Assembly: GCA_016198635.1 (NCBI GenBank)
Contig: JACQIF010000054.1
Location: forward strand, 1-5,881
Reading direction: 5' to 3'
Length of the DNA: 5,881 bases
From: Candidatus Aenigmatarchaeota archaeon
Lineage (GTDB): Archaea; Aenigmatarchaeota; Aenigmatarchaeia; PWEA01; JACQIF01
The translations under genes and the position numbers were made by a program. Shown piece after piece: positions 1 through 5,865 of this stretch (positions within the stretch are counted from its first letter, which is position 1; each line of letters begins with the position of its first letter). Below the pieces are notes generated by a model. That model ran no database searches, was not told where the DNA came from, and saw only the letters and a program-made list of their open reading frames with translations.

Positions 1-390
1 GCCTTGGATAGCGACATACTGATCTATGCTCTGCGGGGCAAAGAGCCTTTCGTTTCAACTGTCAAGGAGCTAGAAAAGAAAGTTGCTCTCGCTACCACCG
101 ACATCAACGTCTTTGAACTGTATGCCGGGGCATACAAGTCCTCACATAGCGATCGCGAGCTGGCTTCTGTAAAAGGCGCGCTGAACGCGCTAACTCTGTT
201 ACACACTTCCGAGGGTTCGATGGAATTGGCTGGTAAGATAGCCGCAGACTTGCATAGGAAAAGAACGCCTATAGACGCCAAAGACCTTTTCATAGCTTCT
301 ATCTGCATGGTATCGGGATGCTCTCTCCTTACAAGAAACACCAAACACTTCGAGCGGATAGACGGCCTGAGGCTTTTCGATCCTTCTTAA
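1..390 (+). CDS. vapC: VapC-like PIN-domain ribonuclease toxin, 5' end cut off by window edge
   Basis: PIN-domain endoribonuclease of the VapC type, normally the toxin of a VapBC pair that cleaves tRNA or rRNA with metal ions held by clustered acidic residues. The reading frame is open to base 1. The first conserved PIN motif (LDSDILIYALRG) begins at the second codon of the window, so the true start and a few residues lie upstream; the TTG at 4 is too close to the catalytic Asp to be the likely start. Counting that TTG as residue 1, the putative metal-binding residues are Asp2, Glu38 (in FELYAG) and Asp94 (in IDAKDLFIAS), followed by the usual PIN tail LLTRNTKHFERIDGLRL. About 128 residues are visible, near full family length. 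A cognate VapB should lie just left of the window and is not seen. The gene converges on endA, and its TAA stop (388-390) overlaps the endA stop. Family assignment is confident; target RNA is unknown. Confidence 0.9.
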   Translation, partial: ALDSDILIYALRGKEPFVSTVKELEKKVALATTDINVFELYAGAYKSSHSDRELASVKGALNALTLLHTSEGSMELAGKIAADLHRKRTPIDAKDLFIASICMVSGCSLLTRNTKHFERIDGLRLFDPS

Positions 391-959
391 GGCGTAATTC
401 TCGTCATGTGGTAGTACGTAACGTCCCCCTCGTCATCAACGACAGCCCACAGCATCGTCGCGCGGATGTTGTGTGCGAGGCGTACGGCGCGGCTAAGCTC
501 GGCGTACGAACAAGTGAATCCTTCTGGAACAGAATGCACAATCCATTTTGTGTGCTCTTTTGCGCTCTTGGGACCTTTTTTGAGCTTGACGCCGCGGTCG
601 TAGACACGAAAGTGCGTGCCGAACTTGAAGCCCGTGCGCACGACAAACCCACGTTCACGTAAATCTTTGTAGACCTTGTACTTCTGTGGAAACTCCTTGT
701 CCAGCTCTGACGCACGCGCATGGAAATCTTCTTTAGTGAGCTTTGATTTACCTTCCTTGACGACGAGACGCTTGCGTTCTATAAGGTGCATCGCTTCGAC
801 AAGAGCCATAACGTTACGCCCGTCCTCGGCCTTGCCGTAGCAGCCTATGTCATAACATTCTTCAGCTTCGCGTTCGCCCCATACGAGGACTTCATTACCT
901 TCAAGCACGCCGTCAAACTGCTTTTCGACACGCTCTTCACGTTTTTCACTATCGCCCAT
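387..959 (-). CDS. endA: tRNA-splicing endonuclease EndA family, catalytic Lys replaced by Ala
   Basis: Archaeal tRNA-intron endonuclease that cuts both bulges of the bulge-helix-bulge motif in pre-tRNA. ATG at 959 gives 190 aa; an adjacent in-frame TTG at 962 would add one residue, and an in-frame stop at 977-975 limits any extension. Length and layout match the single-unit alpha type (about 180 aa): an N-terminal domain, then a C-terminal catalytic domain starting at YKVYKDLRERGFVVRTGFKFG. Numbering from the TTG, catalytic Tyr121 (HFRVYDRG) and His137 (KEHTKW) are present. The third triad residue, Lys in the usual RLAHSVRKK motif (K156 in the Methanocaldococcus jannaschii enzyme), is Ala168 in RLAHNIRATM. 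The spacing His to Ala is 31, as in M. jannaschii. A Lys-rich insertion of about six residues (within 125-136) separates Tyr from His. The acidic VVDDEGDVTYY loop used for subunit contacts is kept. It may be a structural partner of another EndA subunit, or an active variant; the family call is firm, its activity is not. Confidence 0.92.
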   Translation of the reverse strand: MGDSEKREERVEKQFDGVLEGNEVLVWGEREAEECYDIGCYGKAEDGRNVMALVEAMHLIERKRLVVKEGKSKLTKEDFHARASELDKEFPQKYKVYKDLRERGFVVRTGFKFGTHFRVYDRGVKLKKGPKSAKEHTKWIVHSVPEGFTCSYAELSRAVRLAHNIRATMLWAVVDDEGDVTYYHMTRITP

Positions 960-1015: not shown

Positions 1016-1555
1016 ATGGAGAATATGGACATCCTATCTAGGATAGACCGCCAACTCGAAGATAACGAGAATATTGTTGTAGTCAGAAAACTCGGAAATT
1101 TCAAAGTACCGACGCCCCGCCGTCTCTCAAGCTACAACCAAACATGCTACCGACTGGTCGCCCCGAGGAATGGCATCTACGACGTCAACGGGCTTAACGA
1201 CTTTGTGGCACATTTGATAAAGGTTCCGTTGCCGTCAAGAACCGGGCCATTTAAAGAGAACGGTACTCTTCTGGAATTCGGATACCTAGACTTCCTTGAG
1301 TCCATAGGTGGCCAGACAGAAACACGCGAGGTCGTCCAGACTACGAACGTCGAAGAATGGCAAAACGCTGGAGGGTTTATCAAAGGCCGGAGAGTTATCA
1401 GAAGCGACGAGCAGGCATGCACATGGCACCGGACCACATTCGTTTTTCCTTATCCAGACGAGAATATCGCACAAGACCTGTACAAAGACCATGGTGTGAT
1501 GGCCCGCAGCATGAGACTGGAAGATTTGAAGGTATACCAGGCGCGCCGTCTTTAA
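1016..1555 (+). CDS. Hypothetical protein, 179 aa, divergent from endA
   Basis: I do not recognise this protein. The ATG at 1016 is preceded by no ribosome-binding site but lies 24 nt after the centre of a TATA box, which suggests leaderless translation; Met4 (1025) is an alternative start. The product looks soluble, with no signal peptide or membrane segment. Visible features are a charged, probably helical N-terminus (MDILSRIDRQLEDNENI), a basic stretch KVPTPRRLSSYNQTCYRL (residues 30-47), alternating short hydrophobic segments consistent with a mixed alpha/beta fold, two cysteines (44 and 135) and a basic C-terminus (VYQARRL). Codon use resembles the neighbours, so it is probably a native gene. 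It is transcribed divergently from endA off a shared promoter region and converges on the archaemetzincin gene, with the stop codons overlapping in a TTAA. The long open frame, promoter position and tight packing support a real gene; no function can be assigned. Confidence 0.75.
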   Translation: MENMDILSRIDRQLEDNENIVVVRKLGNFKVPTPRRLSSYNQTCYRLVAPRNGIYDVNGLNDFVAHLIKVPLPSRTGPFKENGTLLEFGYLDFLESIGGQTETREVVQTTNVEEWQNAGGFIKGRRVIRSDEQACTWHRTTFVFPYPDENIAQDLYKDHGVMARSMRLEDLKVYQARRL

Positions 1556-2133: not shown

Positions 2134-2247
2134 GCCGCGGTAGCTTAGTTCGGCAGAGCGCGTGGCTGTTACAGCAACAGTCATTATAATTTGACTAACG
2201 CTATGGAAACCACGAGGTCGTCGGTTCAAATCCGACCCGCGGCGCCA
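2134..2247 (+). tRNA. tRNA-Asn(GTT) with one intron, CCA encoded
   Basis: A complete cloverleaf can be folded by hand after removing one intron. Acceptor GCCGCGG (2134-2140) pairs with CCGCGGC (2237-2243). D-stem GCTT (2143-2146) pairs with GAGC (2156-2159). Anticodon stem CGTGG (2161-2165) pairs with CCACG (2210-2214). T-stem GTCGG (2220-2224) pairs with CCGAC (2232-2236) around loop TTCAAAT. The spliced anticodon loop is CTGTTAA with anticodon GTT at 2168-2170, decoding Asn codons. Discriminator G (2244) fits Asn, and CCA is encoded at 2245-2247. The spliced length is 77 nt with CCA. All stems pair perfectly apart from a U-G pair in the D-stem, so it should be functional once EndA removes the intron. 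Confidence 0.96.
2172..2208 (+). other. tRNA-Asn intron, 37 nt, canonical position 37/38
   Basis: The intron lies after position 37 of the anticodon loop. A complete bulge-helix-bulge can be drawn. The outer helix is the anticodon stem. The central 4-bp helix is CTGT (2166-2169) with ATGG (2203-2206), two pairs being G-U wobbles. The 3-nt bulges are TAC (2170-2172) and AAA (2207-2209). The inner helix is AGC (2173-2175) with GCT (2200-2202), and a terminal hairpin AGTCA (2179-2183)/TGACT (2192-2196) closes it. Cutting between the second and third bulge bases gives the boundaries stated. Confidence 0.9.
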
Positions 2248-2338: not shown

Positions 2339-2376
2339 GGGGCAGTAGCTCAGACCGGGAGAGCGCACGGCTGAAG

Positions 2377-2433
2377 AAGCAAACGCCCGCGTACGGAATG
2401 CTATGCATTCCGGGCCGTTTGTGAAGATCTGAA
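2377..2433 (+). other. tRNA-Phe intron 1, 57 nt, canonical position 37/38
   Basis: The boundaries are fixed by the need to restore a 7-nt anticodon loop; a one-base shift gives the same product because both junction bases are A. The central helix CTGA (2371-2374)/TCTG (2428-2431) has one U-U mismatch, with bulges AGA (2375-2377) and AAA (2432-2434). No inner helix directly abuts bulge 1, so the motif is relaxed. Inside, CAAACG (2380-2385) pairs with CGTTTG (2416-2421), and CGGAATGC (2394-2401) pairs with GCATTCCG (2405-2412) around a TAT loop. Confidence 0.85.
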
Positions 2434-2455
2434 ACCGTGATGTCGCGCGTTCAAA

Positions 2456-2570
2456 CCACCCTTTTGCGCACGTCCGCGAAAAAGCGCGCCCGGAAAATCC
2501 GTGCACGGAAACTGCGGTTTCCGGCACTTCGGAAAGTACGCTTTCCGCAAGCCTTCCGGCGCATGGAAAA
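2456..2570 (+). other. tRNA-Phe intron 2, 115 nt, T-loop position 59/60
   Basis: The insertion splits the T-loop between position 59 and 60. Runs of A at both ends leave several cut sites giving the same tRNA; 59/60 gives the best motif: outer helix the 5-bp T-stem, central helix TTC (2450-2452)/GAA (2566-2568) plus an A-G mismatch, bulges AAC (2454-2456) and AAT (2569-2571). The interior folds into a branched structure. A stem GCGCC-c-GGAA (2486-2495)/TTCCGGCGC (2554-2562) encloses two hairpins, at 2501-2527 and 2528-2550, each with a UNCG tetraloop. Non-canonical introns are known in several archaeal groups; the length and folding here stand out. Confidence 0.85.
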
Positions 2571-2609
2571 TCGCGCCTGCCCCACCATTGGTTTCTCTGC
2601 AGAATACGG

Positions 2610-5221: not shown

Positions 5222-5584
5222 TCATATCATTTTTCTTCGGCGGAACCTATCAATCTCAAGGACTGTGACAGTATCCGCGAGGGTCTCGTATTCTGTTCCT
5301 TTCAAGAAGCGAACAAGATGGGCTATCATCTGCTTTGTTGTAAAACTGTGCGGTAGCCTTATTACAATAACACCATAATGCGAACCTTTTGGATAAAGGA
5401 GCGAACTGCCGAACTCTATATCTCTTGTTACCAGAATGGCTTGTTTTGATTTTGCATATTTTGCTATCTCTTTGTCTGATGCTCCTCGGAGTCCGGAACT
5501 CTTGACGTGCTCAACTTCAAAACCAAGAGACTTTATGGCATCGACAGCCGAAACTGGAATATTCTCATCCAGAAATAATTTCAT
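5222..5584 (-). CDS. DUF5615 family PIN-like toxin
   Basis: Small PIN-like protein of the DUF5615 type, usually encoded with a DUF433 partner and considered a toxin-antitoxin pair; the toxin is a predicted ribonuclease. From ATG 5584 it is 120 aa. The family signature is clear: N-terminal MKLFLDENIP with acidic residues in LDEN, then ASDKEIAKYAKSKQAILVTRDIEFG, containing the second and third acidic clusters, then YGVIVIRLP. The start at 5584 matches the usual MKxFLDENI beginning; an in-frame start at 5611 would add nine residues across an inverted repeat. It lies 65 nt downstream of the DUF433 gene on the same strand. A TATA-like TTTAATA (5623-5617, minus strand) sits about 36 nt upstream of the start, so it may also have its own promoter. 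It converges on the aminopeptidase gene with a 25-nt gap. Family call is good; biochemical activity is inferred. Confidence 0.88.
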   Translation of the reverse strand: MKLFLDENIPVSAVDAIKSLGFEVEHVKSSGLRGASDKEIAKYAKSKQAILVTRDIEFGSSLLYPKGSHYGVIVIRLPHSFTTKQMIAHLVRFLKGTEYETLADTVTVLEIDRFRRRKMI

Positions 5585-5599
5585 TGCATATCCCATCAG

Positions 5600-5638
5600 G
5601 CTGTGGCGCACGCCTCTATTAAAGATTTATGCCACAGC
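5600..5638. repeat. 8-bp inverted repeat bracketing a TATA-like box between antitoxin and toxin
   Basis: GCTGTGGC (5600-5607) and GCCACAGC (5631-5638) form a perfect inverted repeat. The 23-nt interval is centred on 5619, and the TATA-like TATTAAA (5617-5623) sits at that centre. The repeat ends 15 nt upstream of the toxin ATG. It could be an operator around an internal toxin promoter, or an RNA stem in a bicistronic message that limits toxin translation. Sequence is direct; function is inferred. Confidence 0.45.
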
Positions 5639-5649
5639 GAATACGCCGT

Positions 5650-5865
5650 TTAAGCATAAGCGCTTACTTCATCCCCGTGCACGAGAGAGCCTACATAACG
5701 GATAACCGCGAGTATCTGTTCTCGCTTGAGACCGTACTCCCTTTCTATCTCTTCGTAAGTCATGCCGGCCTCTAACATTCCTAGAACTTCGTCTACTGTG
5801 ATGCGGGTGCCTTCGATAACAGGCTTGCCGTGCCTTGTCTTTTCATCGATGACTATTTTTGTCAT
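5650..5865 (-). CDS. DUF433 family antitoxin
   Basis: A 71-aa protein of the DUF433 family, the usual partner of DUF5615 toxins. The diagnostic segment is HGKPVIEGTRITVDEVLGMLEAGMTYEEIEREYGLKREQILAVIRY (residues 12-57). The short beta region with GKPVIEGTRI is followed by a helix-turn-helix-like part (EEIEREYGLKREQILAVI) of the kind used for DNA binding, so it probably neutralises the toxin and represses its own operon. The ATG at 5865 gives the family's normal N-terminus and length. Gene order, antitoxin first and toxin 65 nt downstream on the same strand, is typical. Its own promoter would lie beyond the right edge, since only 16 nt of upstream sequence is visible and no TATA box is in it. 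Assignment is by motif only. Confidence 0.88.
   Translation of the reverse strand: MTKIVIDEKTRHGKPVIEGTRITVDEVLGMLEAGMTYEEIEREYGLKREQILAVIRYVGSLVHGDEVSAYA

Follow-up and report, generated by a model that had tools for sequence, protein, structure and literature searches.

A tRNA-splicing endonuclease without the catalytic lysine is probably the working intron cutter of several archaeal lineages

EndA is the relative common to archaeal and eukaryotic tRNA splicing, and its Tyr/His/Lys triad is reported to be common to the four types of archaeal enzyme (PMC6379350; this and the other papers named below are cited for particular passages). The lysine has been described as indispensable (PMC12397907), and papers on the human enzyme, which report the same fold and L10 contacts, assign it to transition-state stabilization (PMC10539383, PMC8479045). 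Here, we describe an EndA that has alanine at this position. Its gene lies on contig JACQIF010000054.1 of a Candidatus Aenigmatarchaeota archaeon (assembly GCA_016198635.1), in a stretch of 5,881 nucleotides (nt) that was analyzed as a whole and is referred to as the window.

The alpha4-type enzyme of Methanocaldococcus jannaschii (PDB 1a79) keeps the catalytic Lys and has a Ser directly after the His, where the window protein has Ala and Thr, and its loop between Tyr and His is 10 residues long rather than 16. The epsilon2-type enzyme of ARMAN-2 (PDB 4fz2, 9w2k) has a homologous catalytic unit with Tyr and His, as in the window, and its ASL region aligns with window residues Tyr42-Gly43-Lys44; unlike the window enzyme, it carries three units per chain and keeps Lys282. 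The (alpha beta)2 type, for example that of Nanoarchaeum (PDB 3iey), is split into a subunit that keeps the His and one that does not, much like seven tandem gene pairs described below, but the catalytic subunit of Nanoarchaeum keeps its Lys, whereas that of the lysine-less lineage lacks it, and in the window there is just a single gene. The unrelated RNase Ire1 is like the window EndA in outline, with a Tyr/His pair, Asn and Arg on the phosphate, and no catalytic Lys named in the passages cited (PMC3149027).

The window protein is a single unit of 191 amino acids that starts at a TTG (position 962) or an ATG (position 959). Residues are numbered here from the TTG; from the ATG, the start taken in the initial annotation, Tyr121, His137, and Ala168 become 120, 136, and 167. 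The protein matches the Pfam families tRNA_int_endo (PF01974; 96.9 bits) and tRNA_int_endo_N (PF02778; 54.1 bits), both above the curated cut-off, and NCBIfam endA (TIGR00324) with 108.9 bits against a cut-off of 59.6, and the fold predicted for its monomer matches that of M. jannaschii EndA. Its domains and fold place it in the EndA family, and the initial annotation, made from the DNA letters, was right to call it an otherwise full alpha subunit. Reading the reverse complement at the Lys codon confirms GCG, and Tyr, His, and Ala stand at the three positions as reported there. The protein therefore lacks the triad of known catalytic subunits. It keeps the catalytic His that beta subunits have lost, and it is too short for an epsilon2-type chain of three fused units and about 390 to 455 amino acids. 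Arg161 aligns with R280 of A. fulgidus, which recognizes the bulge, and is Arg in all 121 aligned sequences. The distance of 31 residues from His to the Lys position, from which misalignment had been judged unlikely, recurs in 189/189 non-redundant sequences of Aenigmatarchaeota and Nanohaloarchaeota, 104/104 of Diapherotrites, and 140 of 141 lysine-bearing sequences; because it is constant across the sets with and without lysine, misalignment is excluded.

A search with the window protein returned 1484 protein clusters. Among the best 120 of these plus the window protein, the Lys position holds Ala in 109, Thr in 12, and Lys in none, and Tyr and His are present in all 121. A scan of a species-level genome collection found 374 relatives, and all of the best 80 loci have a copy that keeps Tyr and His and carries Ala (71), Thr (7), or Ser (2) at the Lys position. 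These loci are labelled mostly Aenigmatarchaeota and Nanohalarchaeota/Nanohaloarchaea, with a few Micrarchaeota, Nanoarchaeota, and "archaeon" and one "bacterium." Outside the window's class, one region from each of 50 genomes gave a copy with Lys in 44, Thr in 4, and Ala in 2, the last two being of one family (f49). The EndA of genome G174 (a single contig of 1,241,428 bases), with Thr at the Lys position, is a 100% match to a protein labelled Diapherotrites, and the best 120 of the 359 relatives found from that protein have Thr (113) or Ala (7) and never Lys; with one further fragment row, they make up the 121 rows of the Diapherotrites set. Of 101 proteins found with the M. jannaschii enzyme, 99 have Lys and 2 are unreadable at one of the three positions. 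The loss of the lysine is real, beyond chance, and, epsilon2-length enzymes aside, fixed in hundreds of relatives. The alternative raised in the initial annotation, that relatives would have Lys and the window copy an error, fails, as the close relatives also lack it.

In three groups of archaea with small genomes, most of the genomes analyzed have, as the sole EndA found, one that lacks the lysine and keeps Tyr and His, which makes RNA cutting with a rebuilt active site likely. We consider it probable that the window EndA is the cell's only, working intron cutter, with cleavage by Tyr121 and His137 and with Thr138 likely holding the scissile phosphate in place of Lys. The enzyme would form a homotetramer of the M. 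jannaschii type. Tyr would act as the base and His as the acid, their roles in relatives, in an in-line transesterification that leaves a 2',3'-cyclic phosphate. The hydroxyl and backbone amide of Thr138 would contact the non-bridging oxygens; Lys132 may assist, as may Lys44 in Aenigmatarchaeota and Nanohaloarchaeota. The exons would then be joined by the ligase RtcB, which is encoded in the window's genome.

The proposed role of Thr138 draws on the ARMAN-2 complex, in which Lys and the amino group of S252, the residue after His, both bond to a non-bridging phosphate oxygen; a comparable pair, K287 and S258, is reported for A. fulgidus (PMC12397907). We counted this position, as well as positions 44, 158, 165, and 169, the fifth before His, and the spacing of 31, after setting aside rows that cover fewer than 130 of the 191 model columns; for position 138, six further rows, each the first repeat of a fused enzyme and each with Val138, were also set aside. 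The residue after His is Thr in 377 and Ser in 26 of 403 lysine-less catalytic rows, versus Ser in 84, Ala in 67, Gly in 1, and Thr in none of 152 lysine-bearing rows. In these alignments, position 138 has changed together with the Lys position, and the hydroxyl and backbone amide of Thr138 may supply the new phosphate contact. That Thr138 would be the main replacement for Lys is our hypothesis, and it is the weakest step of the reading.

Several other residues were considered as replacements and rejected. Lys139, two after His, is present in 119/121 rows of the window's set but is Gln in 97 of 121 Diapherotrites-set rows, so that it is no universal stand-in, and all seven His-less tandem partners retain it as well. 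Lys169, one after the Lys position, is Thr in the window and Lys in only 110/286 and 16/123 lysine-less rows. Asn165 is found in 173/189 and 102/104 lysine-less sequences versus 9/141 lysine-bearing ones; since six of the seven His-less partners keep it, a part in bulge recognition is more likely. It is replaced by Ser in 13/189. In each of the three genomes with an additional epsilon2-length enzyme, the lysine-less EndA is among these 13, and the Ser there looks like a clade effect that is not separable from function. Position 158, Arg in the window, is basic in 98% and 100% of lysine-less sequences versus 32% of lysine-bearing ones, but also in 5/7 of the His-less partners.

A different basic residue might instead reach the scissile phosphate. 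One candidate is Lys44, placed on a loop as the ASL and CSL lysines are in ARMAN-2 and Aeropyrum; the other is Lys132, within the loop between Tyr and His. We regard such a replacement as unlikely, yet the best placed of the alternatives. Lys44 occurs in 183/193 lysine-less sequences (four of them of the Diapherotrites group), compared with 27/141 that carry the lysine. In the ARMAN-2 alignment, it sits one residue away from Lys161, the ASL lysine, and the position is Lys or Arg in all seven catalytic tandem copies versus one of seven partners. However, position 44 is Glu or Asp in 120/121 Diapherotrites-set rows, and Lys44 therefore cannot serve all lysine-less enzymes. A basic residue five before His occurs in 97% of Aenigmatarchaeota/Nanohaloarchaeota and 100% of Diapherotrites sequences, against 37% of lysine-bearing ones, but about a third of lysine-bearing enzymes already have Lys132, and its placement is uncertain because the Tyr-His loop differs in length between the sets. 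The initial proposal that another Lys substitutes is possible, although neither Lys44 nor Lys139 could do so in every lineage.

The initial annotation had suggested a split of roles, with the cutting left to a lysine-bearing EndA encoded elsewhere and the lysine-less protein acting as a structural subunit; we consider this, or some other function of the protein beside such a cutter, very unlikely. The window's own assembly (540 kb in 90 contigs) is only 74% complete, and the second EndA with an intact Lys that was looked for there was not found. We also ran a profile built from 19 lysine-bearing enzymes, with E allowed up to 10, against ten genomes: that of the window, four from its class, three in which the Lys position holds Thr, and two nanohaloarchaeal ones (four of the ten are single contigs and eight are at least 90% complete). 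It found exactly one EndA in each, and all ten are lysine-less. Across the class, 58 of 60 genomes, the window's included, have a catalytic-domain match, and in 49/60 the sole EndA is lysine-less. Among the 57 besides the window's, 48 have only the lysine-less kind, as do 22 of the 31 that are at least 90% complete. Both kinds occur together in three of the 57, and the paralogue explanation, which could hold only for these three, is not supported for most of the lineage.

Tandem genes bear on the same question. At all seven loci with two EndA genes, one copy has Tyr, His, and Ala, with Thr after the His. The partner has lost the His in every case (Lys, Thr, Glu, Lys, Arg, Gly, and Lys in its place) and also the Thr (Ile, Val, Ala, Ile, Ile, Ile, and Ile). 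Since it is the partner that loses the His, the Tyr/His/Ala site is the one that selection treats as working. The partners keep acidic residues at positions 176 (7/7), 178 (7/7), and 180 (6/7), which the Tyr/His/Ala copies do not uniformly do; these residues may belong to the L10 assembly loop, as expected of a structural subunit. Copies fused into one frame are found as well: six lysine-less EndAs of two repeats (L049, L050, L052, L053, L055, and L057; frames of 364 to 372 amino acids) have Ser at the Lys position of both repeats.

Genomes with a lysine-less EndA have work for a splicing endonuclease. As a proxy for intron-bearing genes, we took tRNA matches of at least 95 nt, which is longer than an uninterrupted tRNA normally is. 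Seven genomes were assessed, in each of which the sole EndA found is lysine-less. Such matches number 17/37 in G058, 7/14 in G054, 5/8 in G001, 2/5 in G010, and 4/10 in the window's genome; among the matches listed, they number 12 of 30 (of 32) in G174 and 13 of 27 (of 30) in G272, where some short matches may be false. ARAGORN reports introns in 15 of 38 gene calls across the fetched loci, some of which overlap. By this length measure, intron-length tRNA genes are many in these genomes. In G001, a single contig from the window's genus that is about 90% complete, only 8 of 41 candidates gave tRNA matches, and the genes of the remaining tRNAs may be interrupted by multiple or unusual introns.

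The window itself supplies two candidate substrates, noted in the initial annotation, which took their splice sites for a relaxed BHB. The gene at 2134-2247 reads as tRNA-Asn once 37 nt are removed; because ARAGORN matches the unspliced gene in intron mode only, with the intron shifted, and calls it Ser(GGA), this identity is likely rather than certain. Two introns interrupt the second gene, which is probably tRNA-Phe: the anticodon loop carries one of 57 nt (about 2377-2433) and the T loop one of 115 nt (about 2453-2567), each placed with a few bases' freedom. Unspliced, it has no ARAGORN match in either mode and none at the Rfam gathering score.

Several points weigh against a working lysine-less cutter with Thr138 on the phosphate. 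A lysine-bearing enzyme of epsilon2 length is the only EndA in 6 of the 57 class genomes and stands beside the lysine-less one in three (6 and 3 also among the 31 that are at least 90% complete), and no EndA match was found in 2 of the 60, one of which is 94% complete. Ser is common at position 138 of lysine-bearing enzymes, so that a hydroxyl there is not new as such, and the joint change of the two positions could be explained by relatedness, as one or two ancestral events are possible. The fused two-repeat enzymes (family f5) have Tyr and His in both repeats (6/6), and their first repeats, with Val138, have lost Arg161; the retention of Tyr and His alone is therefore no proof of catalysis. 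Finally, a 2025 paper states that Ala at the triad residues abolishes cleavage by the ARMAN-2 and A. fulgidus enzymes (PMC12397907); its main text contains none of the terms Aenigm-, Nanohalo-, DPANN, and Diapherotrites.

The Lys-to-Ala mutants reported to be inactive in these two relatives (PMC12397907) are also what speaks for a catalytically dead enzyme in a cell whose introns are removed by an unrelated nuclease. We judge this highly improbable, given that Tyr and His are kept in 121/121 sequences and that one copy of each tandem pair keeps both while the other loses the His. We know of no unrelated intron-removing nuclease of that sort. Losses within the triad may also be less absolute than the mutants suggest, since an archaeal His mutant is cited with only a 28-fold loss of rate (PMC3149027). 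An artefact of sequencing, assembly, or alignment, conceivable for a 90-contig assembly, has a negligible chance given the same substitution in the separate records of 80/80 loci and 120/120 proteins and the constant spacing of 31.

How often the lysine was lost was examined in a tree of 115 rows, from which the trait columns had been removed and rows covering fewer than 140 of the 191 model columns set aside. One group (support, 99) comprises 38 lysine-less rows like that of the window, among them the nanohaloarchaeal ones, and the 18 lysine-less rows of the Diapherotrites kind form a second group (support, 89); the first repeat of L055 falls among lysine-bearing rows. The clade was tested without two long-branch rows (the L055 first repeat and P0219). 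A tree in which all 56 lysine-less rows are kept in one clade scored 19.3 log-likelihood units above the one left free, and the test does not reject it (p-AU 0.78). A single loss of the lysine is possible on these trees, and so are two. Tentatively, the lysine-free endonuclease may have arisen once, before several DPANN phyla diverged, and taken over tRNA splicing with a Tyr/His dyad and a phosphate site rebuilt around the Thr next to His, intron-rich tRNA sets still being processed; we hold this somewhat less likely than its contrary.

If the enzyme does cut, the supposedly universal EndA triad would be reducible to a dyad in nature. Three archaeal groups carry, as a fixed state, a substitution said to kill the enzyme, and their genomes have many intron-length tRNA genes. 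The role and replaceability of the lysine could be tested directly with one protein and two substrates from the window (Table 1). A natural comparison also exists within the lineage: some genomes have a lysine-bearing enzyme of epsilon2 length, with or without the lysine-less one alongside. These epsilon2-length enzymes (frames of 398 to 455 amino acids; L046, L051, L054, L056, and L059 to L063) are patchy in the window's class, and gene transfer is a possibility.

Table 1. Positions of endA, its active-site codons, and the two interrupted tRNA genes in the window
Feature	Positions	Strand	Basis
endA, lysine-less tRNA-splicing endonuclease, 191 amino acids	387..962	-	Open reading frame, Pfam, NCBIfam, predicted fold
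Tyr121 codon, catalytic Tyr position	600..602	-	Tyr in 121/121 aligned
His137 codon, catalytic His position	552..554	-	His in 121/121 aligned
Thr138 codon, directly follows His137, probably the new phosphate contact	549..551	-	Thr/Ser in lysine-less rows
Ala168 codon (GCG), catalytic Lys position	459..461	-	Reverse complement read; alignment
Lys44 codon, possible helper	831..833	-	Adjoins ASL-lysine position in ARMAN-2 alignment
Lys132 codon, five residues before His, possible helper	567..569	-	Basic residue enriched in lysine-less sets
Arg161 codon, equivalent of bulge-binding Arg280 of A. fulgidus	480..482	-	Alignment; role from passages of PMC12397907
Interrupted tRNA gene, likely tRNA-Asn(GUU), one 37-nt intron at about 2172-2208; not part of endA	2134..2247	+	Rfam tRNA, 57.7 bits
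Likely tRNA-Phe(GAA) gene, two introns	2339..2587	+	Spliced form reads as tRNA-Phe

Other genes share the window. An open reading frame of 179 amino acids (1016-1555, plus strand) is divergent from endA and has no Pfam match at E 0.001, and a gene at 1552-2094 on the minus strand encodes an archaemetzincin-like peptidase of family M54 (Pfam, 77.1 bits). Toward the far end, at 5222-5865 on the minus strand, adjacent genes match the Pfam families DUF5615 and DUF433, an arrangement that resembles a toxin-antitoxin pair.
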